From: Telopea speciosissima
Lineage: Eukaryota; Streptophyta; Magnoliopsida; Proteales; Proteaceae
Direction of reading: 5' to 3'
Length of the DNA stretch: 64,000 nucleotides
Assembly: GCF_018873765.1 (NCBI RefSeq)
Contig: NC_057918.1
Location: 64,854,871 to 64,918,870 of the forward strand
Shown: positions 3,361 through 45,138 of the stretch, one piece after another
Position numbering within the stretch: the stretch's first letter is position 1
Layout of the letters: each line of letters opens with the position of its first letter
Notes under the pieces: model-generated
What the model was told of the DNA's origin: nothing
The model's database searches: none
Seen by the model: only the letters and a program-made list of their open reading frames with translations
Program-made: the position numbers and the translations under genes

Positions 3361-5699
3361 TTGACATCCCTCTTCGGGCGTTGGAGATTGTCGCTCCGAG
3401 TAAGTAGCTTGATCCTTCCTTCTTTATTCATATCATCTCCCGACAACTCCGATCCGGCCACGGTCCCGGCCCCGGCTGAGTATCCTGGGGAGTCTTTGTT
3501 TGGGTCGTCCTCCCCGGCGGGTACCGCCTCGTCATTGCCCTCTCCCCTGCTAGTGATGGGGAGGAGGAGGTTCCTAGAGGCTCTGCCTCTGGTGACAATA
3601 GGGGTCGCAGGGTTCCCCCGGGCCTCGATTGGGGATCCTCGCAGTACGTTGGCCCAGACTGCTAGTGTCCTGACCGCCTCGGACTTAATTTCTATCCGTC
3701 GCGAGTTTTATATCCCTCCCGAGATTGTTCTTCATGTCCCCGATCCTGACGACTGTGCCTACTCCCATCGAGGGGATGAGGTCTGCCTCTACCGCGTTTT
3801 CTTCACCTACGGTCTTCGTCTTCCCTTCTCCCGCTTTGTGGACTTGGTATTGGAGCATTGGTGCCTTAGCCCTGGGCAGGTGTGGCCCAACTCTTGGCGG
3901 ATTATTTTAGGAGTATATGTGTTTTTTGCCCGGGCGGGGCGTGCAACCACTGTTCCCCTATTTTCGTACTTCTACGATCTGAGGAAGGGGGACAGCGGGT
4001 GCCACCACTTCGCCCATCGTGCTCCCAAGGGAGCTCTTGCTGCATTTGATCCTATTGTGGGGATTACCGACTGGGTGAAGCGCTGTAGGGATCGCTTCTT
4101 CTTTGCCATGGTCCCCCAATGTGCATTGCGGTCTACCTGGGAGGCCATTGATCTCAAGAGGGTGAACTACCCTCTTGCGCTGAGTGACCCTGAGTTCGAC
4201 ACCCTCTGGTAGTGTCAGGGACGTGACCCATTCGACGTTCATCAGTTGAATTCCGAGGCCTTCTTATGCCTTTGGAAGTTGAGTCCTGGTAAGATTTTTC
4301 CTTTTTTTGCTTGCATCTTTGTTTATCTTCTACTTTACTAGCTGCCTAACTTGTCCTGTGGTCTTGATTTGATGTTGTTATGCAGTAAGTATATGGCCGG
4401 ACCTTAACGTTTACCGGTCCAGTATGAGGAGGAAGGGCCCTTCAGTTGCTCCTCCTGCGAGTGGTTTTGGTTTTGGAGCTACTGGTGTCGACGTTCCCCC
4501 GGTCCCTGCCCCTTCTTCTCTTGCGATCGTTAGGACCAAGCGGAAGGGTGGTCCGGATTCTTCCAGTGTGACGAGGTCCGATATGCGTGTCATCCTCCCA
4601 TGCTCTTCTCCCCTCGTCGTTGCTGCTTCAGGGTCTCCTGCTCCTCCTACTGTTGCCCCCCTGGGGCCTTCTACTTTGCCCAACTCTACGGGGAAGGGGG
4701 TGAGTTCTTCTTCGGTCGGCACGACTGTCGATCCGGCAGTCCCTTCGTCGCTGGTGCTTTCCCTGGATCTTGAGGAGGGTGCGACATTGTTTGGGCATGG
4801 CGTGCCACGGGAGAGGTTGGATAAGGGGAGGCTCCCTGCTGAGAGTTCAGCCCTGCAAGGGCTTAGTGACGCGTTCCTGGCGCAGACCCTTTATCATGAC
4901 ATGGCCTCTGTAAGTCCTACCTCTTCTTTCCCTTGATCTTTCGTGCTTGTAGCTTTCCCTGTATACTTAATGGCTGGGTTGCTTGTAGGTTTAGCACCGC
5001 GCTACGAAGGCGGTACTCCATCTTGAGAGATGCACTTTCTGGGAGGTTTAGTTATCCCGTCGGCTGTAGGGTCTGGAGAGAGAGCTCTAGGGGTAGAAGG
5101 CGGCTCGGGAAGAGGATGCGGCTTGTGAGAGGAGTATGGCTGAGCAGCTCAGGGTGGCATCCGAGGGACTCAGGGTGGTGTCCGAGGAGCTCCGAGTGTC
5201 GTCTGCTGTGGCGGCTGAGAGTTCAACTAGAGTCTGTGCCTTGGAGGAGGAGGTTGGTGCGCTGAGGGAGATTCGTGAGTTCGAGTTGTCCGCGGTTGGG
5301 GAGCGAACTGTGGCCGAGTTCCAAGAGTCTTGGGCGATGTTAGACTTGTTCCACGAGAGTACCCAGAAGGTATATGAGGGGGGTGTCCGAGATTTGGGGG
5401 ATCGCATCTTGGAGGAGACCCCTGGTTATGATTTCTCGAGATTCTCTGAGTTCGCCTCGGTGTTGTCTGCGTTGGTTCGAGTTTCTACTGGGGATGGTTT
5501 TATGGCGTCCGGGGTGAGTGTTGTCTTGCCTGAGGAGAGAGCGATCTTGCCCGTGGGGAGCGCAGCCTTGCCTATGGAGAGCGCGGCTCTGCCTGAGGAG
5601 AGCGCGGTCCTACTTGAGGAGAGTGTGGCTCATCCCCCTGAGGGTGACATGATATCTCCTACAGGGTCTGACGTGACTCCTCCCATCGACGCCCCATAA
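3361..5699 (+). pseudogene. Antisense ORF of the gypsy element (PF04195-like), two introns
   Basis: This coding sequence is on the strand opposite to gag-pol. Exon 1 (about 3361-4288) holds a segment like the family called putative gypsy type transposon (LPFSRFVDLVLEHWCLSPGQ, then WPNSWRIILGVYVFF). I see a GT-AG intron at 4289-4385 that keeps frame (phase 1), then a Ser/Pro-rich exon 4386-4909. A second intron is at 4910-4988, then an exon with a Glu-rich coiled-coil (CALEEEVGALREI) and a repeated LPEESA-type tail ending at 5699. In-frame TAG stops at 4210-4212, 4992-4994 and several between 5040 and 5100 disable it. The beginning is uncertain: the first open codon at 3361 is not ATG, and 3344-3360 looks like a splice acceptor, so an upstream exon is likely. 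Antisense ORFs in this position are known in Tat elements such as Grande; their function is unknown. Confidence 0.7.
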
Positions 5700-5814: not shown

Positions 5815-6470
5815 CTTGATGATCTTTGGTCCCTGGCGGTCTGGGACCCGGGTGGCCTTGTGCCTTATTGGTCATTGGACTTTGGTGGCCTACGGGCCTT
5901 GGTGGTCATTAGACCTGGGTGGCCTTGCGCCTTATTGGTCATCGGACCTTGGTGGCCTACGGGCCTTAGTGGTCATCGGACCTGGGTGGCCTTGAGCCTT
6001 GGTGGCCTGCAAGCCTTAGTGGTCATCGGACCTGGGTGGCCTTGCGCTTTGGTGGTCATTGGACCTTGATGGCCTATGGGCCTTGGTGGTCATCGGACCT
6101 AGGTGACCTACGGGCCTTGATGGTCATCGAACTTGGGTGGCCTACGGACCTTGATGGTCATCGGACCTGGGTGGCCTTGAGCCTTGGTGGTCATCGGACC
6201 TTGGTGGCCTACAGGCCTTCGTGGTCATCGGACCTGGGTGGCCTACGGACCTTGATGGTCATCGGACCTGGGTGGCCTTGCGCCTTCGTGGTCCTCGATC
6301 CTTGGTGGCCTACGGGCCTTCGTGGTCATTAGACCTTGATGGCCTACGGGCCTTCGTGGTCATCGGACCTGGGTGGCCTACGGGCCTTGATGGTCATCGA
6401 ACTTGGGTGGCCTTGCGCCTTAGTGGTCATCGGACCTTGGTGGCCAACGGGCCTTCGTGGTAGTCGGCTA
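5815..6470. repeat. Minisatellite inside the gypsy element
   Basis: Roughly 17-19 imperfect tandem copies of a unit of about 33-36 bases, built from GGTCATCGGACCTGGGTGG and CCTACGGGCCTTGG. It lies between the antisense ORF and integrase, the known hypervariable 3' region of Tat elements. The repeated reading frames it produces are not genes. Confidence 0.9.
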
Positions 6471-6660: not shown

Positions 6661-9600
6661 TCACTGGTAGTACTTCTTCAGGTGTTCTGAGGTCCAAGTG
6701 CGCTCTATCTTCTTGCCCCCCTGAGTCTTCAAGCGGTAGGTCCTTGGACGTATCTGCTTGGAGACTATGTAAGGTCCTTCCCAATTGGCTGATAGCTTGC
6801 CTTCTTTCCTTGGCGGGGAAGCACTGGCCCTTCTCAGGACCAGGTCTCCTTAGTGGAACAGCCTCTCTCTAACCCTGGTGTTGTAGTATTTGGCGGTTTG
6901 TTATTGGTAGGCTACATTCCTTAGGAGTGCTTTCTCTCGGACTTCATCGATGAAGTCCAGGTTCGCCCGTAGTCCGTCGACATAGGTGCACTCGTTGAAG
7001 TGTAGGACTCGATGGGACATAGCGAGGACCTCGACTGGTGCCAGTGCCTTCGTGCCATATGCCAGGTGGAATGGGCTCTCCCCTGTGGGTGTCCTGACTG
7101 TGGTCCGGTACGCCCACAGTACACTTAGTAGTTCCTCGATCCACTTCCCCTTAGCTCCCTCTAGCCTCTTCTTGACCCCTTCTAGTAATGTTCTGTTGGT
7201 CACCTCCACCTAACCATTGGCCTGTGGGTAAGCTACCGAGACAGGCCAATAGTCGATTTTGGAGCTCTGACAGAATGTCCTGAACTTGGGGTTATCGAAT
7301 TGTTTGCCATTGTCTGAGACTAGGATCTTTGGTACCCCGAACCTGTAGATGACATCGTCGCGGACGAACTTCTCCATTGGCCTCTGTGATTTTAGCCAAC
7401 GGCTTAGCCTCGACCCACTTGGTGAAGTAGTCAATAGCGACGTCCAAGTACTTCCTGTTCCCCAATGCTGCCGTGAAGTCGCCCAGGATGTCCATCCCCC
7501 ACATGGCAAAGGGTATGGGGTTGAGGATCGATGTCAGTTTGGTGGCGGGTAGATGGGGTATTGGGCGAACAACTGACACTACTCGCACTTCCTGACATAC
7601 TGTATGGCCTCCTCTTGCATTCTTGGCCAGTAGAGTCCCTGGCGGAGGACCTTGTAGGCTAGGGCTCGTCCTCCCATGTGGCTTCTGCATATCCCCTCGT
7701 GGACTTCAGCCAGGGTGTACTCGGCTCCCTTGGGTTCCAGGCACCGGAGTAGTGGTGCTGTGACCCCCCTCTTGTATAGTACTTCGTATAGGACGGTGTA
7801 CTTTACCGCTCTCATCCTAACCTTCCTCGCCTCGACCTTGTCCTCCTCTGGTAAGATGTCATTATGTATGCAGTCAAGTATAGGGTCCATCCAGCTGGGC
7901 CCTTCCTCAATGGCATTGACCTGCTTCTCTTGGTATGTTGGTTCATATAGTATTTCAATGTACACCACCCTTGCCAAGTTTCAAAATTCATCATTGGCTA
8001 GCCTGGATAGAGCATCGATGGTGGTGTTCTCAATCCTGGGAACGCGAACCATCTCGAACTTCAAGAACCTCTCGATTAATGATCGGGCACGTGCTAGGTA
8101 TGCCGCCATTCGCTTGTTCTTTACCTCATATTCTCCATTCACCTGGTTTACCACAAGCTGGGAGTCACTCCAGATGGATAGGTGTGTGATTTGGACAGCC
8201 TTGGCCACCCGGAGTCCGACTAGCAGTGCCTCGTACTCGGCTTCATTGTTGGATGCTTGGAAGGTGAACCGGAGGGCATACTGGATCCAAAATCCCTCGG
8301 GGCTAGTGAGTCTGAAGCCAGCCCCACTTCCTGTTGCATTACTCGAACCATCCACGAACATCGTCCACAATCCGCGGTCATGTTCCTCTGGTTCTTCTTC
8401 CTCTGGCTCTGTCTCAGATAGGGTGCATTCGGCGATGAAGTCCGCCAGAGCTTGACCTTTGATGGCAGTCCGGGGTTGGAACCTGATGTCATGCTTACTT
8501 AGTTCCACTGCCCAGGCTATGAGTCGTTCGGATACGTCTGGCTTGTGGAGTACCTTCTTCAGGGGTAGGTTAGTGAGGACTGTGATGGTGTGGGCTTGAA
8601 AGTATGCTCGTAGCTTCCTAGCTGCGATTACTAGTGTATAGGCGACCTTCTCGATCTTTGTGTACTTGGTCTCTGCATCGATCAGAACGTGGCTAACATT
8701 GTAGATGGGCCTCTAGACCCTGCCTTCTTCTTTCAGGAGTACTGCGCTTACATCGACCGGGGTGGCCGCCAGGTAGACCTGTAGGTCTTCATTGGGTTCT
8801 GGTCGCTCCAGTAGTGGTGGGCTTTTCAGGTACTCCTTCAGTTCTTCGAATGCCTTCTGGCACTCCTCTGTCCACGTGAAGTCCTTCGGGCTTCTGAGGT
8901 TCTTCAATGTTTTGAAGAGCGGAAGGCACTTGTCGCCCGACCGTGACACGAACCTCGAAAGGGCTGCGACCCTTCCATTCAACCTCTGCACCTCTCTGAC
9001 CGTCCGGGGGGGTGCCATCTCTTGGATGGCTTTTATCTTGGATGGGTTGGCTTCTATTCCCCGTACTGAGACCATGAACCCCAAGAATTTTTCTGACATT
9101 ACCCCGAAGGCGCACTTTGCAGGGTTCAGCTTCATCTGGTTCCTTCTCAGTACTGTGAAGGCTTCCTCCAGGTCGGTGAGGTGCTGTTGGGCTTGGACGC
9201 TTTTAACGAGCATGTAGTCCACGTACACCTCCATGTTGTGCCCAATTTGTTCTTCAAACATTTTTTTGACCATTCTTTGGTAGGTGGCCCCTGCGTTCTT
9301 TAACCAGAATGGCATGACACAGTAGCAGTAGTTCTCCTGGTCCATCCGAAATGCCGTGTAGGACTCGTCGCCCTCATGCATTAGGATCTGGTTGTACCCC
9401 GAGTAGGCGTCCATGAAGCTCAACATCTCATGGCCTACTGTGGCAACGATCAACAGGTCAATCCTGGGCAGTGGGTACTCATCTTTCGGACAAGCCTTGT
9501 TCAGGTCGGTGTAATCAACACACATCCTCCACTTCCCGTTAGGCTTCGGCACCATGACTACATTCGCCAGCCAGGTGGGGAATTTCTCTTTCCTGATGAA

Positions 9601-10869
9601 CCCCGATTGGCTCAGTTTCTCGACCTCTTCCTTGATTGCTGTCTGTCGGTCGAGGGCGAAGTTACGACTCTTCTGTTGGATGGGCTTCCTGGTCGGATCG
9701 ATGTGCAACCGGTGCTCTGCTATGGAGCGTGGTATGCATGGCATGTCAGAGGTCGGCCATGCGAAGACATCCATGTTGGCTTGGAGGAGGTGCCCAAGCT
9801 CATTCCTCTGGTCGGTGCTCAATAGTGAGCTTATCTGTACAACCTTGGAGGGGTCGTCCTTACTGAGTGGCCATGGGACGAGGTCCTCTACCGGTCTACC
9901 TCTCCTCTCTGTCAGTTCATCTCTCTGGTCGCTGCCCAGGGTCACTAGGCAGAGTGTCATTCCTAGGGAGTTGACATTGTTCTTCTTTATGAAGGTCACA
10001 TAGCACTCCCTTACTTTCTTCTGATCTCCCCGGACCTCACCTACCCCATTATCGGTGGGGAACTTCATCTTCAGGTGGAGTAACGATACAACTCCTCTAA
10101 GGGCTATCAGGGATGGTCGCCCTAGGAGGCCGTTGAATGACACCACGGCCTTTACAACCATAAAGTTCACCATGATCATCACTTGTTGAGGGTGTACTCC
10201 AAAGGTGACTGGTAACTCTATGGTGCCTCTGATGGAGGCGATCGCACTCGAGAATCCATGGAGGTAGGTAGGTTCTGGCTTGAGCTGATCGTCCCCAAAC
10301 CCGAACTGTCGGTAGGAGTCCAAGGAGAGTACGTCTACAAACGCTCCTGTGTCTATCAGTACCCTGTGCACAGGTCGGTTGGCTACCTCCACCTGTACCA
10401 CCAGGGCATCCTCATGTAGGAAGCTTAGTCCTTCCAAGTCTTCATCCGAGAAGGAGATCACCGTCTCGGTCTTGGCTATCTTGCTTGGCTTCTCTATAAC
10501 TCCCATGAACCAGGCATGGGCTTTGGCCTTCCCAGTGGACTCCTGCCCCGATCCTCCTAGTATGGTGAGGATGGGGGCTCCCTTGGTGCCACTAGGCTCT
10601 ACTGCATCTCTCCGTTCTTCTGGGCGGTCTCTCTCTCGATCCGTCCTCCTCTCTTCTCTTCTTGATTCCTCTCTCCCTTGGTCACGACCTCTATCTGCTT
10701 GACCTGAACGACCATCACGTCTTCCTTTCACGTATTTGTTCAAGCTCCCGGCCCTTACAAGGTTTTCTATCTCCCTTTTCAGATGGTAACAGCCCTCTGT
10801 ATTATGCCCATTCTCCTTGTGGAAGAGACAGTACTTGTTAGGGTTTCGCTTCTTGGGTCCTGCCAGCAT
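6661..10869 (-). pseudogene. pol of the gypsy element: PR, RT, RNase H, aRNase H, INT
   Basis: The open piece 8713-10869 is 718 residues. It starts with the gag Cys/His end, then an aspartic protease (VLIDTGAFVDVLS, about residue 172), then RT (CVDYTDLNKACPKDEYPLPR, then FMDAYSGYNQI). The RT active-site box reads YVDYM where YVDDM is expected, so the second catalytic Asp is lost. A TAG at 8713-8715 cuts into the first RNase H. The second, archaeal-type RNase H is open at 7981-8508 (FVDGSSN, NNEAEYEALL, SDSQLVVNQV). Integrase follows: the HHCC finger at about 7579-7760 (H..ICRSHMGG, CEEC), the core with WGMDILGDF and DNGKQFDN, and the C-terminal third at 6901-7209. Frameshifts near 7290-7500 and stops at 7978-7980 and after 6901 break it. 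The coding sense ends in a TGA at 6661-6663. Confidence 0.9.
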
Positions 10870-17121: not shown

Positions 17122-17606
17122 TTTAGTCTTTTAAGACATTGGAAGTAACATTTATCCCAGTTCCTCTACTAAGGATTTTTGTAAACCTCCTAACATGTAT
17201 GAGGCAGGATGTTTATTTTTTAGACTGACTACGGTTTGAGAAATTGGAGTCGGAATTAGATCGTTGACTCGATTGAATCAGATCGGAATCGATTGGAACC
17301 AATTTTGCTTAGAAAGGATCTATTTTACTCTGGATTTCTAGGGTTCAAATTAATTCAAGTCAATCGGATTCAGTGGAGGTCAATCCCATTTCTGATTCTG
17401 CTTATTTGAACCTTGGGACTGATTGATTGGCTTGTAATGCTTAAAAGGCTTACAAAATATTATAATACTTAGCATTAGCTATTAGAGGCAATCAACCACC
17501 CTGATCATCCTTTGTTCGGTCTTCTCTACAACTTCAATTTGGAATTCTCTTGGATTGAGCTCCGAACACTTAAGATTTTCATCCCTCCAATATATGTTTA
17601 TCTATT

Positions 17607-19204
17607 GAGTAATTTACATATACCATCTCTGAGGTTTGACGTAAGGATATTTTTACCTCTCAGTTTTGAAAAATTCTGCGTACCCCTAAGGTTTACAAAT
17701 GTTAAGAAATACACCCATTCTGTCAGTTTATGACTAACGATGTTAAAAAATATGAGGTGAAATGATAACACTACCCTTGCCAAAAAAAAAACCTGTAATA
17801 ACTCATCTTCTCCAATCGATTTGGGGAAGATGAGTTGCAGGTATGGAACTCCAAAGATCACAATCCCGCAAAGCTTTTCCAAGATCTTCGCGAAATGGAT
17901 TAGGGAACACCACGAGCTTCAAATGGAGGAGAGAAAGGATACCTGCAACTCATATTGGGGAAGAGCTCCCTGTCGTGAAACACAACGGTGGCAGTCCCTG
18001 AACCAGGGGAAGAACCAGAGAGGGCACCGTCTTCCTCTTCCTTCTTCTTCTCCACCCTTTCTTTTCTCATGACCGAAGTCCCCAAAACCTAACACCATCT
18101 TCGATTTGCCAATAGCCTAAACCGTTCCACACCATTTCTTTCCATTCTTCTTCCCATCTCCACCGGTTGTAGCAAACACGATTGAAACCCTATTTCTTTT
18201 TCTTTTTATAAAAGCTAATCTGAAAATCTGAGATTTCAGCCATAACATTTGAATCGGCTATGAATGTCGCAATCTCAGATCTCCACTGAATGAGAGACGT
18301 CCCCATCCTGCCCGAGCTTCTCCGCAAACGGCTCCGACCGGCGAGCACACGGCGATGGACGTTCATATAGCTACGGGGTGAACCACCATGGCCTTGACAC
18401 ATCAGGACTGCTTGCGTTAGTGGTCAAAGGGCTGGAAACATTAAAGCAGATCCTCGAAGCTCTGCAACTCAAAGGGTTTATGCACTCTAAAAGACCGATG
18501 GAACAGATCGGGAACCGGAATTTCGTCAATCGTCGAGATTTTACGTTGAAGAATCCCCTATAGTCATCATGAAGCCTTCCCACTCGCCGGTTTCAATCAA
18601 CAAGGTTGGAAGAACAGCAACAGAGTCTCCTCCTTCGAGTTTCAGATCCAGAGCCGGAGTTTGCCGGAATCCAAATCTAGCTGGTGAGACATTGCCACCA
18701 GTAATCCCGAGGCGCGACCGACATGGAACCGATAGAAATCTATAAGCCCCAAACTAAACATGCTTCAAGCCCCACCTCTCATACCAACAACTGGTCTTCT
18801 TTTTTCAAACCCTAAATGATTTGGGGAAAATCAAACAAAAACCCAGAAAAGAAGAACAAATTAAAACCAAAAAAAGAAGAGGTTGATAGTGTATCAGTTG
18901 ATTCAACTAATCTATTACAGCTATCATCTAATTTGGTTGGTTCAGGGTAGGTTTGCTTGAGGATCGAAATATGTGAGTTGCAGGTTTTTTTTGGGGGAAA
19001 ATGAGTAGTTGCAAGTTTTTTTTTTTTTGCAGGGGTAATTTTGTCATTTCACCCCATATTTTTAACGTTGTTAGTCATAAACTGACGGAATGGGTGTATT
19101 TCTTAACATTTGTAAACCTCAGGGGGGATACGCAGAATTTTCCAAAACTGGGGGGTAAAAATATCCTTTCGTCAAACCTCAGGGGTGGTATGTATAAATT
19201 ACTC
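17607..19204. mobile_element. MULE with long TIRs, likely Pack-MULE
   Basis: Terminal inverted repeats of about 215 bp (17607-17820 and 18990-19204) begin GAGTAATTTA and share CTGCGTA, AATGTTAAGAAATACACCC and GTCAGTTTATGACTAAC. The exact 9-bp duplication TTATCTATT flanks the element at 17598-17606 and 19205-19213, as expected for Mutator-like elements. There is no transposase. The inside is GC-richer than its surroundings and contains gene-like sequence (next entry). Confidence 0.9.
18378..18745 (+). pseudogene. Captured LONGIFOLIA/TRM-like gene fragment in the MULE
   Basis: One open frame at 18378-18563 carries LETLKQILEALQLKGFMHSK and EQIGNRNFVNRRDF. A second frame that begins near 18552 carries ESPIVIMKPSHSPVS and then GRTATESPPSSFRSRAGV, ending in a stop near 18743-18745. 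The order of a KQILEALQ.KG...HSK block followed by SPIV.MKP is the pattern I know from plant LONGIFOLIA/TRM proteins, which act in cell elongation and bind microtubules. A frameshift lies between the two blocks. It has no proper start and no DUF4378-like end, so it is a fragment. The match to this family is from memory. Confidence 0.6.
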
Positions 19205-19213
19205 TTATCTATT

Positions 19214-28200: not shown

Positions 28201-30107
28201 TGGTCTTCTATGGTTGACAAGGTATGGAGCATTCATTATCTGTTAACACCGCATGGGCTTGTCTGTCTCAAATATCTATCTTTTTATGCATCCACTATGT
28301 ATTACCTATGCATTTGCACAGGTACGCACTTGTGTGTGTGCGTGTAGGCTTTATTTCTACGTGAAAATGGTGACAGCCATTGTATGTATAAATTAATGCT
28401 TTTGGTTGATGACTTATTCAGGGCAATGGATTTCTTGGTTGAACTGTTCCGCAACTTATTGGAGCATCCAGATTGGGCCATGTCTCAAGCTTGCACTGAT
28501 TCTTACAACAAAACCCTGAAGAAATGGCATGGTTGGCTTGCCAGTTCAAGTTTCACGGTACCTCTCAACTTTATGAAACTAAATTCCCTGTTATCTATTA
28601 AAGATACAGAACATACTTATACCATTTTCCTGCTTTAGAAAGTGAGATCTCTAGAGCCTTCAATAACATGCTGACCTTTTCTTCTTGGCTCTAAAACTGT
28701 TTTGTGTGATAAGTACTATGGCCTGCATATTGGTCACTGTAAATCCGCCATCATCTACAAGAAGGCTTTTCTTGAAGCCCTTTCTGCCTTCTTTGTTTTC
28801 TCTACTACAGTGGCATTAAGGGTTCAAGCTTGTTCCAAAAAAGGCCAAGCCTGCCCAAAAATATCGGGCTTGTGCTGGCTTTTCAGCCTGCGGTCTAGGC
28901 TAGAGTTGGGAAATCCTAGAACCCAAAATACAACCTTCTGCTTGTGTAATATTTCCTTTTTATCTCTCTTTTTTTTTAAATTTTATTCCAACAAATAGGA
29001 CTCAAGAGAAGGAGCAATTGTCTGAATGTTGTTTATCCATACCTTGGTATAATTACTCTCTAGATTCACTTCTCATGAATTTCTAATAAAAATGGCGATA
29101 CTGGTATTATGTTACTCTGTTTCAGCTTTTGGTTATTGAATCGCAGGTTGCCATGAAACTGGCTCCAGATAGAAAGAAGTTCATGGATGTGATTGGGGGT
29201 GGAGGTGATCTCAATGCTGACATTGAGAAATTCTGTTCAACTTTCGCTCCACTTCTTGAGGAGAATCACAAGTTCTTGGTAAGATATTCAATTTTATGGA
29301 CTTTCTCTAATTTCTCCAGAAATTAATCTATTGGTTGAATCCTGCATATTACAGTGTGCTCCTTAAATCGAAGACTGCACTTGTTTTGTCTAATATTTCC
29401 CCTTGAATTGAATCTGTCAAAAGATAGGAGACGTAAATTTGATATGGAGAAGAGAATTGGAGGGAAATTATTACTTTTCCAGATCTGAATTTTCTCAATT
29501 TAACACTATTTTTCAAAACCTATATTGATATTATAGTAGCCAGACATAGATAAATACAAATCAACTAAACTCAACTGAACTAATGGGTAAGTTTCTCGGC
29601 TTCATCTTCTAAAATTCCATAAGGCTCAGCTTCCCAAAGAACAAAAGGTGGATCCAACTGGATGAGGCAATTTGGAATCTTTACCACACAAACCACAAAA
29701 AGCACAGATCAACCCCCCTCCCCCAGCGTTAAACAAATTTGCACTAAGCTTTATTGCAGCTAAATGGGGTCAGCTATGTCGATCATGTTTTTCAAAGCCA
29801 GAGGGATAAAGCATCCGAGGAGAAGGTATGCCAACAAAGACGGGATTTAGTGGGATATGGATGAGGGAAAGTGAGTCAGAATAGCTTAATTTGCTGGATT
29901 GAAAGGGAAAACACAGAGTCTGAAAATAAGTGAAGCAGTTGCAATAGTTATTATTGAGTCGGAATGAACATCTGTGAAGGAAAATATTTACTAAAATTCC
30001 AATTAGTTGTTAACAATTTGAATTTCCCAATATGATTTATTCATTTTCTTAATCCTTTTGTTTGGCTGCAGGATAGTGTTGGTATGGACGACCTGAAAGC
30101 TTCCTAA
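22252..30107 (+). CDS. ACD11: ACD11-like glycolipid/sphingolipid transfer protein
   Basis: Six coding exons are 22252-22369, 24890-24945, 28091-28221, 28422-28557, 29147-29278 and 30072-30107. All have GT-AG borders and compatible phases, and give 202 residues, near the length of Arabidopsis ACD11. The protein is one GLTP fold. Key pieces are [10 protein letters not shown] (Asp at 52), [20 protein letters not shown] (Arg at 102), KTLKKWHGW (His at 138), [12 protein letters not shown] and a short VGMDDLKAS end. The Asp, Arg and His fit the lipid-headgroup residues of the fold. ACD11 moves ceramide-1-phosphate between membranes in the cytosol, and its loss triggers cell death in Arabidopsis. 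The start ATG follows an acceptor at 22240 by 11 bases and begins [14 protein letters not shown]. Introns 1 (2.5 kb) and 2 (3.1 kb) hold RTE LINE debris. The reading frame is intact, so it is probably functional. Confidence 0.92.
23630..24036 (+). mobile_element. RTE-clade LINE 3' fragment in ACD11 intron 1
   Basis: Open at 23724-23984 with [25 protein letters not shown], and RARGRPK, the C-terminal end typical of plant RTE LINEs. The 3' tail is the conserved GGATCCATGTAGCCGAC, TTGGGATAAGG and a GTTGTTGTTGTTG end. Confidence 0.85.
25131..25330 (-). pseudogene. Unrecognised open frame beside the RTE fragment
   Basis: A minus-strand open frame covers 25131-25370, with [20 protein letters not shown]. 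It resembles a decayed retroelement gag region in composition, but I cannot name it. No exon role in the surrounding gene is supported. Confidence 0.25.
25330..26280 (+). pseudogene. RTE-clade LINE RT fragment in ACD11 intron 2
   Basis: RT pieces run in order: [15 protein letters not shown] near 25365-25410, [16 protein letters not shown] at about 25575, and the catalytic region [15 protein letters not shown] near 25650-25690. Then [20 protein letters not shown] and [16 protein letters not shown] at 25819-26268. Stops and frameshifts between pieces make it dead. It ends abruptly at about 26280 and is joined to an inverted copy of the RTE tail. Confidence 0.87.
26284..26340 (-). mobile_element. 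RTE/SINE tail, inverted
   Basis: On the plus strand it reads CAACAACAAACTCATCC, then CTTATCCCAACTTAATGGGG, then GGCTACATGGATCC: the RTE 3' tail on the minus strand. Confidence 0.75.
26515..26696 (+). mobile_element. RTE LINE 3' end in ACD11 intron 2
   Basis: A short coding remnant (RGRPKLTI) is followed by the tail GGATCCATATGTCCGACCCC, TTGGGATAAGG and (TTG)n. Confidence 0.75.
29745..29795 (-). mobile_element. Decayed RTE tail in ACD11 intron 5
   Basis: CAGCTAAATGGGGTCAGCTA and the following ATGTCGATC match, with changes, the inverted RTE tail seen at 26284-26340. Confidence 0.5.
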
Positions 30108-34723: not shown

Positions 34724-36097
34724 CTATAAACAAAAAGTTAGAAACAACCCTAAGAAGATTATAAGAAGCAGAGAAGAGTTTACTGGTGAAGAACTCTCAG
34801 AGAATGAGAACAGGACAGCATCTGGTTTATTGGGTTTGTTGCAGGATTTCAAGTACCCCAAACTGCTTTTATCTTGAGCTGAACTAAGGTCTCCATCGAT
34901 ACAGAGATTAGGATTTCCAGCTAACTTTAACTTTCCTCTGATTCTAGCTGAAAAATTAGCAGAGAATGGAAGCTTTCCACTCAATTTGTTGTTTTCCAAG
35001 TTCATCTCATGAACAGACTCCAGAAGCCCAAACTCGTCCGGCACTGTTCCTTCAAGCTTGTTCTGATCAAGAACCAGGAAACAAACGTTTCTCAGAAAAA
35101 CTCCCATGGAAGCAGGAATTTTACCAACCAGACCCAACCCTGATAACCCTAACCCCAAAATACCCCCAAGCTTCTCCCAAATTTCAGGTATCTGGCCTCC
35201 TAGTGGGTTCCCACTCAAGTACACTTCTCTCAGGCTTGGCATCTCTGCTAAAAACAGAGGAATTCCAAAGTTACCAAAACGGTTGTAGCTCAAGTCCAAG
35301 AACTCAAGTTCCTGCAAACCCACTAGGCTTTCTGGGATTCCCCCATCAAAATGATTCGAACCCAAATCAAGCTTCACCAGCTCTGTCATCTTCCCGATTG
35401 ATTCTGGGAGATTCCCTTCTAACCCATTGTAACTGAGGTCAAGCACTTTCAGTTTCTTCAAGTTCCCTAAGCTCTGGGGAACTATTCCATGGAAGCAATT
35501 TCTGCTGATTGTAACTTGCTGGAGCTCGAGCAAACCACCAATCTCATCTGGGATTGCTCCAGAAACGCTTGTCCCGCTGAGAATGAACCTCCTGAGACGA
35601 GTTAAGTTGCCGAGATTCCCACTCAGAGTCCCAACCAGAGATGGGTTATCGATGAACACGAGTTCTTCTAACGTAGAACCCAAGGTTGAGAGGAACCAGG
35701 GGAAAGAAACCATGGTTTCTGTGAAACATTGGTAGAAGAAGAGCTTGCGGAGGTAAGTGAAGGAAGAAAGTAAAGGGGAAAGCGTAGAATTAAAACTGCA
35801 AGGTGGGTTTGGAGAGTAATCTGAAACGGAACCGAAGTTGAGTTCTGTGATGTGAGGCGTAACGGTATCGTTCTCGTCGGAGAAATACTCACAGACGATT
35901 CCATGAGGAGCTGAGACACAGAAATCATCAGGGAAGAGAGATCGCCAATCGATGTCCGAGTTGATCGCTTCCAATACTTGATATACCGATTCCTGCTCGT
36001 CGTAGTAGTGAGAAGTGGAAGAGGTAGAGTGTGCAGAGATGAAACAAAAGACAAGAAGAAGGCAGAGACGGGCTATAGAACAGTGTGAAGAAGCCAT
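34724..36097 (-). CDS. Secreted or anchored leucine-rich-repeat protein
   Basis: A single exon of 457 residues. A signal peptide covers about residues 1-24 (SIARLCLLLVFCFISAHS). A Cys-containing N-terminal cap follows (DDFCVSAPHGIVCEYFSD), then about nine to ten plant-type LRRs, for example LKVLDLSYNGLEGNLPESIG and LEFLDLSYNRFG. A C-terminal Cys pair region (NPNLCIDG, LKSCNK) leads into a hydrophobic end (SSLLLIIFLGLFLTFCL). There is no kinase domain. The tail after a Ser-rich stretch fits a GPI-anchor signal or a single membrane span. It resembles the receptor-like and Piriformospora indica-insensitive-2-like LRR families, which act at the cell surface in signalling or development. A direct ligand is not known. 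The start is the only ATG that gives the signal peptide. Two G-boxes lie 130-160 bp upstream. Confidence 0.9.
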   Translation of the reverse strand: MASSHCSIARLCLLLVFCFISAHSTSSTSHYYDEQESVYQVLEAINSDIDWRSLFPDDFCVSAPHGIVCEYFSDENDTVTPHITELNFGSVSDYSPNPPCSFNSTLSPLLSSFTYLRKLFFYQCFTETMVSFPWFLSTLGSTLEELVFIDNPSLVGTLSGNLGNLTRLRRFILSGTSVSGAIPDEIGGLLELQQVTISRNCFHGIVPQSLGNLKKLKVLDLSYNGLEGNLPESIGKMTELVKLDLGSNHFDGGIPESLVGLQELEFLDLSYNRFGNFGIPLFLAEMPSLREVYLSGNPLGGQIPEIWEKLGGILGLGLSGLGLVGKIPASMGVFLRNVCFLVLDQNKLEGTVPDEFGLLESVHEMNLENNKLSGKLPFSANFSARIRGKLKLAGNPNLCIDGDLSSAQDKSSLGYLKSCNKPNKPDAVLFSFSESSSPVNSSLLLIIFLGLFLTFCL

Positions 36098-41039: not shown

Positions 41040-44000
41040 GCCCATGCCCATGACATGTCTCTCAAAAACACAAGGGCGAAGACCTTTGGTTAGGGGATCT
41101 GCAACCATATCATCTCGTACTAATATGCTCCACCGTAATGTCACCTTCCTTTACTCTCTCCTTTATGGTCAAATACTTGACCTCCATGTGTTTAGACCCT
41201 CTAAGTCCTTTATTGTTGTTTATAACCAACACACAGAGAGTTTATCACAAAGATATCCGGATGGGTCTATCCACAAAATCTACAATAGTCAACTCCTTTG
41301 TGAGATTTTACGAGCCAAATAGCACGAGTAGCAGCCCCATAGCATGCTACAAACTCTGCCTGCATAGTCGAAGTGGTCACCAATGTCGCTTTTACTCTTC
41401 CATGATCTCGCCCCTCCGCCATCAAGAAAACATAACCTAATGTGGATTTCTGTCATCCTCACAATCAAGAAAGTCGAGTCAGTATACCCCACTAGCTTGA
41501 GTTCAGGAACGTGTCTGTAAGTCGCATATAATCTCTTGTCCCCTTCAAGTACCTCAATACTTTCTTGGTAGCAACTCAGTGACCAAGACCAGGATCTCGA
41601 CGATACCGCCAAGAAGTCCCGTCACAAAAGCAATATCCGCCGTGCATGCACTGAGCATACATGATACTACCAAGTGCGCTAGCATAAGGCACCTTCTTCA
41701 TTTCATCCCTCTCACTTTATTTTTGCATGTGTAGAACTCAGTTTGTCACCCTTGAGAATAGGAACATTCCCAGGTTTGCAATCCAGCATACTGAACCTCT
41801 CCAGAACACAATCAACATAAGCCCTCTGAGAAAGACTTAATAAACGGTGAGAACGATCCCTATGGATCTCAATCCCAAGAACAAAAGAGGCCTCACCAAG
41901 GTCCTTCATGTCAAATTCCCTAGATAAAAGTTGCTTTGTATTATGCAACATCCCTAGGTCACTGCTTGCAAGCAGGATGTCATCCACATACAGAATGAGA
42001 AAACAGAATTTGCTCCCACTGACCTTGTGATATATACACTGATCCACTTTGTTTTCCATAAAACCAAACGAAGTCACAACACTGTCAAATTTCAGATACC
42101 ACTGCCTAGAAGCTTGTTTGAGACCGTAGATAGACTTCTTGAGTCTACACACAAGATGATCTGAATCATCCACTGCAAAACCCTCAGGCTGAACCATATA
42201 TACTTCCTCATCAAAATTGCCATTGAGAAAGGCGGTTTTAACATCCATCTGATGCAGCTCCATATCAAAATGAGCTACCAATGCCATGATCACCCTGAAG
42301 GAATCCTTCGAGGAGACTGGAGAAAAGGTCCCATTGTAGTCTACTCCCTCTCTCTGAGTAAATCCCTTGGCTACCAGTTTGGCTTTAAACCTCTCAACTT
42401 TTCCTTTGGAATCTCTTTTGGTTTTATACACCCATTTGCAACCAATGGGCTTACAACCTTTAGGTAAATCAACAAGCTCCCAAACATCATTATGTTTCAT
42501 CGATTGCATTTCATCTCTCATCGCATCTATCCACAAATCTGACTGAGGACTAGAAACAACGCCTGAATAAGTAACTGGATCGACCACACAACCAATGTCA
42601 TAGTCATGTTCTCCCAAATAGACCTCATAGATAGGTGATATAGCTGACCTTCTCTCCCTGGTGGATCTCCGTAATGGTGCCACTACTGCCTCAACCTGAA
42701 TCTAAGGAATCTCAGCTGGAACTGTATCAATGATAGGATCCTCAACCGCATCTTGAATAAGAGGAATCTCATCAGGTGCTACATGAATGTCGGGGACGGT
42801 ATCAATATCGGCTCCGAACTCCGAGTGTAACCAATGGCACAATATGCCCCACATCGATCGAATAGGTAGAAGAATAGGTACCGATGTACCAACCATGTGA
42901 CTATCTTGAACATCGAGAACAGTCATTCTTTTCGCCACATCAAATTCCGAAACTTTGCTGTCTGTGACTCCACAATCCTAGTGCCTCCGCAGGGATTATA
43001 AAATTTATATCCCTTCGAATGATCTGGGTAGCTGACAAAGTAGCAACGAGTAGTCTTGGGATCCAACTTGTTTAAAGTCGGATTATACAACTTCACTTCT
43101 GCAGGGCACCCCCAAACTCTAAGATGGTTTAAACTGGGTTTACGACCGGTCCACAACTCAAAAGGTGTAAGAGGAGCGGCTTTAGTAGGTACACGGTTAA
43201 GGATGTAAAGAGCATTTTTCAAGGCTTCACCCCATAAGAACTTAGGTAAATTTGTCGTACTAACCATACTCCTTACCATGTCCATAAGGGTACGGTTACG
43301 CCTTTCGGCGACCCCATTTTGTTCAGGACTTTCTGGCATAGTAAATTGACTAACTATTCCAGAGTCCTCAAGGTATTTGGCAAACGAGCCCTTAAGCTGT
43401 CCAGCATCAGCATGTCTGCCATAATACTCACCCCCACGATCAGATCTAACAATTTTAATAACTTTTCCTAACTTTTTCTCAACTTCAGTCCTAAAAATCT
43501 TAAACTTGTCAAGAGATTCAGACTTTTCTTTAATTAAGTACAGATATCCATATCGGGAATAGTCGTCTGTAAAAGTGATGAAATAAAATTTTTTACACAA
43601 TGTGGCTGAATAGGGACCACTGATGTTAGTGTGAATGACCTCTAACAGGTCAGAACTACGGACTGCAGTTTTCTTCTTTATTTTGGTCATCTTTCCCTTA
43701 CAACAGTCTACACAAGTTTCTAGATCACTTTCGAGAGTAGGCAGGATGTCAGACTTTATCAGCCTTTCCACTCTTACCTTAGAAATATGACCTAGCCTCT
43801 TATGTCACAATGCGAAAGACCGTTCTTTAGGTAAGGGTCTTTTAGAAACAACACTTTCAACATTACAGGAGACGTAGATATCAGTGGGAGACAAACACAA
43901 TCTGTACAATCCGTTGGACATAAAGCAGGAACCAACTTTAGTTGAATTAAAAAATAAATTAACCATAGTATTCTTTATTTCAAAATAGAAACCACTAATG

Positions 44001-44230
44001 TCCAAAACTGAAACCGAAATTAAATTCCGCCTAAAGGACGGTACATAAAAAGTGTTCTTTAAAGTCAATTTAAAACCAGAATCTAATAATAAAATGACAT
44101 CTCCCACGAACTCTACGTCAGAATGTCCATCATTTCCTACGACCAGCCTTGATTCATCCTTGTTTGGCCTCCTCCGGTTTATGAACCCCTGTATGGTAAA
44201 AGCAACATGGTTAGTTACACCGCTATCTAG
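41040..44230 (-). pseudogene. pol of the copia element
   Basis: Protease: WWLDSGVTNHVAF, near 44240. A TGA at 43805-43807 sits where the integrase finger HKRLGHIS begins (W to stop). Integrase core is at 42923-43771 ([10 protein letters not shown] finger end, [26 protein letters not shown]), with a shift near 42930 and a TAG before RT at 42699-42701. RT is intact over 41712-42683 (WVYKTKRDSKGKVERFKAKL, MDVKTAFLNGNFDEEVYM, LYVDDILLASSD). The RNase H end at about 41040-41710 is full of stops (a QAEFVACYGAA-like piece is visible near 41300-41350). Confidence 0.9.
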
Positions 44231-45138
44231 CCACCAAGAACTGGATGGGGCTTCTGATAGATTGGATTCACAAACAAAAGCCAAAGAATCATTACCTGAT
44301 GGCTGCTTGGGCTTGATAACCAAGCCTTGTATTTGTCGCAGTCCTTCTCCATGTGACCCTTCTTCTTGCAAAAGAAGCAGCAATCACTCTCTTTCTTCAA
44401 AGAGTCTTTCTTGGGTCCCAAATTGTTAGTCTGATCGGACTGTTTATTGGCAGACTTATGAGTATGGTTTTTAGACTTTTTACTCTTACGGGCTTTGGAA
44501 GTAAACAGGTTAGTAGGCTTTTTCTCTTTCTTCAGTTTCTCTTCCTCAGACACAACCCTAGAAATTAGGTCATTAATGCTCCAGACTCCATCTTGGGAAA
44601 TGTAGTTGGTTTTTATGATGCCAAATTCAGAAGGTAGGGTATTTAAGGCTTGATGGACAATTAGGGCATCTGGAAGAGGAATGTCTAAGGCTTTGAGTTT
44701 AGTTTGGTAATCAACCATCCTAATAATGTAATCCCTAACACCCCCAGAACCATCATACTCCATATTAAATAACCCTTGCAGAAGTGTCCCAATCTCAGCA
44801 TTCGATGAAACTTTGTATCTCTTGAAAATTGCATCTAGCAATTCCCTGGCAGTACATTTCTCAGGCAGACCACTTTTTAGGTGTTCCGGTATCGACCTCT
44901 TTATGGGCAGTATACTGAGTCGATTACTCTTTTGCCATGCAGCATGCACAGACTTTTCATCCTCAGTACTATCAGCAGTTAGTTCCATTGGTGTATCCAT
45001 AACAAGAGACGTGTGCACATCTGCCATTTCCATAGCAAACATAATGTCCTCTTTCCACTTCTTAAAGTTTGACCCAGTGAGGAGCTCAATAGTAATCATG
45101 TTATTATTGACAGAGAAGATGACTGAAAATTTAAACAA
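44227..45138 (-). pseudogene. gag of the copia element
   Basis: A 303-residue open frame. A UBN2-type gag begins near LLTGSNFKKWKEDIMFAME, continues through YKVSSNAEIGTLLQGLFNME, and carries a CCHC knuckle CCFFCKKKGHMEKDC near residue 250. It then runs off the pol frame: protease coding lies in another frame that overlaps its 3' end (43805-44383), so a frameshift lies near 44230-44380. Confidence 0.88.

Follow-up and report, generated by a model that had tools for sequence, protein, structure and literature searches.

A probable multi-source Pack-MULE carrying a LONGIFOLIA/TRM-type exon fragment

In this study, we asked what lies at positions 17598-19213 of the window, the stretch of 64,000 nucleotides analysed here (C3:64854871-64918870 of an 823-Mb assembly), and how a piece of a host gene came to stand there between inverted ends. 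A first-pass annotation had taken the interval for a Pack-MULE with a LONGIFOLIA/TRM-like (LNG/TRM) gene piece, and this view is supported by the terminal inverted repeats (TIRs), by a target-site duplication (TSD) and by a host-gene fragment whose parent lies on C10. We suggest, with a probability of roughly 0.93, that the element is a non-autonomous, multi-source Pack-MULE. The element is old.

Borders and composition of the element

Between the two copies of the duplication the element measures 1,598 bp, and the borders drawn in the first-pass annotation proved base-exact for the element plus its duplications. The long TIRs and the exact 9-bp duplication that it described were both recovered, the latter as TTATCTATT, which stands at both borders without a mismatch (Table 1). 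From the local base composition, 9 bp would match at a fixed position with a chance of about 9e-6, and a crude upper bound for the duplication arising by chance is 0.006 once offsets and lengths are allowed for. The inverted ends, of 207 and 211 bp, are 85.8% identical over 212 aligned columns and 88.3% identical in the outer 188 columns. MULE ends may differ from each other already at insertion, and because they need not be identical at that point, the use of TIR divergence as a clock was dropped. Pack-MULE TSDs are 8-11 bp long, typically 9 bp. The predicted MULE class is based on the length of the ends, on the length of the TSD and on the GGG-type ends of relatives, among which GGGTAATTTACA or GGGAAATTTACA is a frequent start; the element itself starts with GAGTAATTTACA, and its ends open with GAG, not GGG.

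The interior is GC-richer, as had also been noted, with values of 0.48 in the LNG piece and 0.60 in a second gene piece of BTB/POZ type, vs 0.33-0.37 in the ends. No frame beginning with ATG and longer than 91 aa overlaps the element, which in this respect lacks a transposase and is non-autonomous. On the left, positions 17609-17924 match the family element L022, and 17609-17922 the element L023, at 85% in each case, and 17922-17975 belong to a stretch common to L021 and L022. On the right, the comparison of 33 elements showed 18740-18831 to be confined to the seven LNG carriers among them, and from about 18827 onward the sequence is common to many other family elements.

Table 1. Features of the element and of its flanking duplications, in window coordinates
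Feature	Position	Strand	Evidence
Left target-site duplication TTATCTATT	17598..17606	.	Exact match to 19205-19213
Left terminal inverted repeat	17607..17813	+	85.8% to reverse complement of 18994-19204; similar ends in family elements
Left subterminal and linker	17814..17975	+	Alignment to L021, L022, L023
Segment A1, ~290 bp	17976..18265	+	12/33 family elements (window included) and other loci
BTB/POZ-type gene piece, antisense to LNG piece, without 4 bp	18266..18367	-	93% to C1:12028495
60-bp piece common to L015	18367..18426	+	88% to C3:11187970-11188029 (minus strand)
LONGIFOLIA/TRM-type exon fragment (likely), 308 bp, sense, one-base frameshift	18432..18739	+	94% to C10, 83% to C1
Bridge and right subterminal	18740..18993	+	Comparison of 33 elements
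Right terminal inverted repeat	18994..19204	-	Inverted-end alignment; family ends
Right target-site duplication TTATCTATT	19205..19213	.	Exact match to left copy

The exon fragment and its parent gene

The parent locus that the first-pass annotation had proposed to look for was found at C10:54252941-54253249, with 94% identity to the captured piece, and a paralogue at C1:33487907-33488217 matches the piece at 83%. In the C10 parent, a 510-aa open frame bears VARLMGL (PF14383, 1.4e-9) and a downstream frame bears DUF4378 (PF14309, 3.7e-18); the Pfam scan covered the frames of this locus, and the C1 paralogue, which was outside the scan, has open frames matching those of the C10 parent and a similar N-terminal exon. 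The VARLMGL motif and a C-terminal DUF4378 are features of LONGIFOLIA/TRM proteins. Both edges of the captured similarity fall within one parent exon, and both domains lie outside it.

It had been claimed that the element encodes a KQILEALQLKG block followed by a ESPIVIMKPSHSP block, which we take, from the block sequences, to be of LONGIFOLIA/TRM type. Both blocks are present and in the order given; however, they do not form one reading frame, because a base of the parent is absent between 18534 and 18535. A Pfam scan that covered, of the element's own frames, the two blocks found no family for them, and a literature search for an LNG-type motif as text returned nothing. Going by the blocks together with the two Pfam domains, the source of the fragment is likely a LONGIFOLIA/TRM-type gene, and the parent is likely a cell-elongation regulator on another chromosome. 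The LONGIFOLIA/TRM1-5 clade is described as acting in organ elongation (PMC6300067, PMC6226536), and a C-terminal TON1-recruiting M2 motif is named for LONGIFOLIA/TRM (PMC6300067, PMC12197291). The C10 parent resembles this clade in having both VARLMGL and DUF4378, whereas what the element retains of the single exon is a frameshifted stretch of about 310 bp with neither Pfam domain.

A broken coding frame is also what speaks for a different origin, in which a decayed local LNG/TRM pseudogene came to be flanked by chance by two solo MULE ends or MITEs. This is extremely unlikely given that the exact 9-bp duplication lies directly outside both ends and that the similarity is limited to a stretch from within one exon; a strong point against it is that the same fragment, with its right edge within 2 bp, occurs in eight other copies, none of which is without a family end.

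Relative to the parent, the fragment in the window has accumulated 7 silent and 11 replacement changes, where 29% and 68%, respectively, would be expected without constraint. The substitutions appear to fit decay without protein constraint, although 18 changes give little power and weak constraint is possible. Most likely, the LNG fragment is decaying as non-coding DNA without a protein function. We counted 98 perfect 21-mers common to the element and the C10 parent, and 33 common to the element and the BTB locus on C1; matching small RNAs are therefore possible, and an effect of such RNAs on the parent gene would be possible but unsupported. These matches favour a working Pack-MULE, one that is transcribed and gives rise to small RNAs lowering the expression of its LNG/TRM parent, as does an account of rice Pack-MULEs as transcribed and possible sources of small RNAs (PMC8277862). 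Against it stand the LNG piece, single and in sense, and the 6% divergence, the frameshift and a pattern of substitutions in keeping with neutral decay. A working element is very unlikely, and for the host the element is probably neutral debris.

Spread of the family and assembly of the interior

Searching the genome with the whole element gave at least 133 matches from the 40 candidates that were scored out of 2,741 found at first look, and the family size is for this reason a lower bound. Outer ends were scanned at 34 loci, comprising 33 relatives (L015-L047) and the window region (L048), and both ends were present at 29. Among these two-ended loci, an exact duplication of at least 9 bp was found at 15, the window included, and a duplication with one mismatch at 9; the others comprise one with no more than an 8-bp poly-T match and four without a duplication. 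Thus 24/34 scanned loci, or 24/29 with two ends, carry a 9-11-bp duplication with at most one mismatch, again counting the window. In scanning the relatives, lengths of 8-11 and offsets of as much as 6 bp were admitted, and because of these offsets the duplications in the AT-rich or poly-A/T flanks of several relatives are weak. Taken together, the genome searches and the end scan place the copies at distinct genome sites, showing transposition.

When the fragment alone was used as the query, all 13 first-look candidates were scored and all 13 matched: the C10 parent, the C1 paralogue, nine family copies (the window, L015-L020, L051 and L052), the locus L050 and a 49-bp match at C1:76.09 Mb. 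L051 (C11:24.23 Mb) and L052 (C11:24.17 Mb) have identical 12 bases outside each end and lie in opposite orientation; they appear to be a single insertion doubled on C11, as if by an inverted region duplication, and with their flanks identical the nine copies are probably eight insertions. One recognised end is present in L016. The right edge of the fragment falls at base 5060 of reversed L009 in 8/9 copies and at 5058 in L020, and the left edges fall at 4752 in the window and L015, at 4899 in L016, at 4908 in L017-L020 and at 4938 in L051 and L052. Downstream of the right edge, a common sequence follows in seven aligned copies and also in L051 and L052, and the window and L017-L020 have derived bases in common.

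The ending of nine copies within 2 bp of one parent base points to one capture followed by amplification. The alternative is that the exon is a hot spot from which the nine LNG-carrying copies took their pieces independently. In a tree built on only 123 bp for each of them, L051 and L052 fall beside the parent and apart from the other copies (bootstrap 62), and L050 holds another piece of the exon that stops, on the right, 9 bp from the family's edge, both of which could be read in favour of independent captures. We have weighed the common edge and the bridge above the position of L051 and L052 in this tree, and since the same bridge follows in 7/7 LNG carriers of the 33 elements as well as in L051 and L052, repeated capture by the nine copies can be given almost no credence.

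The second piece itself, in L050 (C10:3039300-3041800; 3.04 Mb), is 86% identical to parent bases 4257-5069 over reversed positions 711-1471. It is larger and more diverged than that of the family and lies between degenerate, weakly inverted MULE-like stretches, whose local score of 109 exceeds the highest value, 86, obtained from 100 mononucleotide shuffles. Between L050 and the window element the only match is the LNG piece. L050 may thus represent an independent and older capture, possibly by an older MULE, or an old pseudogene piece. It is highly improbable that the LNG/TRM exon has been a repeated target of at least two MULE lineages, whose overlapping pieces would jointly be a source of small RNAs tuning an elongation regulator in trans.

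The interior is not the same throughout the family, other elements holding other interiors. In the window, a BTB remnant is followed, from a switch at 18367, by the 60-bp piece and then by the LNG piece, and the join of the first two overlaps by one base. The BTB remnant comprises 102 bp with about 34 codons left, within a BTB-like frame of C1:12028495, of which 501 bp were taken into the comparison. A PDB search with the BTB-like piece gave no match at E 0.1. The likeness to a BTB/POZ-domain gene extends to identity and frame, but the remnant is short, antisense to the LNG piece and without 4 bp. Segment A in the form found in L021 is composite: its bases 291-505 match the same C1 locus at 94%, with the gapped alignment continuing to 584, and the reverse strand of this stretch reads as a BTB/POZ-type protein, whose Pfam BTB score is just at threshold (20.6 bits vs a cut-off of 20.5).

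Segment A1 also has matches outside the family, at 96% on C3:15.8 Mb and at 83-87% at several other loci. From the matches at L011-L014 it was considered as a gene exon, an idea rejected as no product was recognised in its frames and a MULE-like end adjoins it in L011. A repeat search revealed no inverted pair of at least 18 nt in L011, L013 or L014. By eye, positions 4200-5600 of L011, the locus at C3:15.8 Mb with the 96% match, show A1 beside a different MULE-like end sequence, as if A1 had moved between MULE subfamilies.

A 177-bp query across 18367 had 15 genome matches, and only one of the 15, the window itself, spans the junction. Segment A is present in 12/33 of the elements compared, and among these elements segment A and LNG occur together only in the window. 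It is on this unique junction and on the pattern of segment presence that we base the statement that two captured-gene lineages were fused. The window and L021 are 98% identical in segment A, 79% in the left end and 89% in the right end. In its first 240 bp, the window is nearly equally close to L022 (82.6%), L023 (82.4%) and L017 (81.6%), and its left end is 79-85% identical to the 'BTB' elements L021 and L022 and about as similar to L017. The LNG segment and the bridge have their best counterparts in L017 (96.1% and 95.7%, respectively), and L022 is slightly closer than L017 in the right end (93.0% vs 92.1%). Support in the segment trees is low, and the donor of each half is less clear than the join itself.

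A model in which gene fragments are captured through template switches, either during gap repair or at a stalled fork, is given in PMC8277862. Following this model, we propose that the LNG exon piece entered the family in a single event, when one of its members copied it, probably via template switching in gap repair or replication. The LNG-bearing element would then have multiplied with transposase supplied in trans, as we infer from TSDs being present and a long open frame absent. In a later template switch or recombination, a 'BTB' element may have contributed its left part and an 'LNG' element its right part to a hybrid, which would then have inserted at the site in the window.

Relation to known Pack-MULEs and other features of the window

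The element fits the descriptions of Pack-TYPE elements and Pack-MULEs, the former defined in PMC8903248 as TIRs and TSDs with a match to coding genes. As in the type case of rice, it has long TIRs, a 9-bp TSD, no long open frame, several copies with distinct TSDs and a small exon piece from another chromosome, here of 308 bp as compared with 305 bp, the median size of captured pieces. This median, together with the figures of 36% multicopy and 40% transcribed for rice Pack-MULEs, is quoted from other work in PMC8277862. Nothing categorical sets the element apart, though the captured genes and the BTB/LNG hybrid are peculiar to its family. A literature search pairing 'Pack-MULE' with 'LONGIFOLIA' found nothing. 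The kind of element is already known and the fusion of two lineages is modestly interesting: one genome shows the parent gene, a paralogue, the capture edges, the sister copies and the later fusion of two captured-gene lineages. Such a case could help to date the capture of genes and to examine if multi-gene Pack-MULEs arise through template switching among the members of a family.

Elsewhere in the window, an exon of a gene with a glycolipid-transfer-protein domain (PF08718, 3.8e-14) lies at 28348-28635 on the plus strand, and a frame for a 457-aa leucine-rich-repeat protein at 34724-36097 on the minus strand. Retrotransposon frames are present at 8713-10869 (minus) and 3361-4212 (plus), with RVT_1, RT_RNaseH_2 and Transposase_28 ('putative gypsy type') domains, and around them, from 2 to 13 kb, the GC content is 0.52-0.56. 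Copia-type frames (RVT_2, Retrotran_gag_2) occupy 41712-45138 on the minus strand, and 34-bp tandem arrays are found at 5844-6461.
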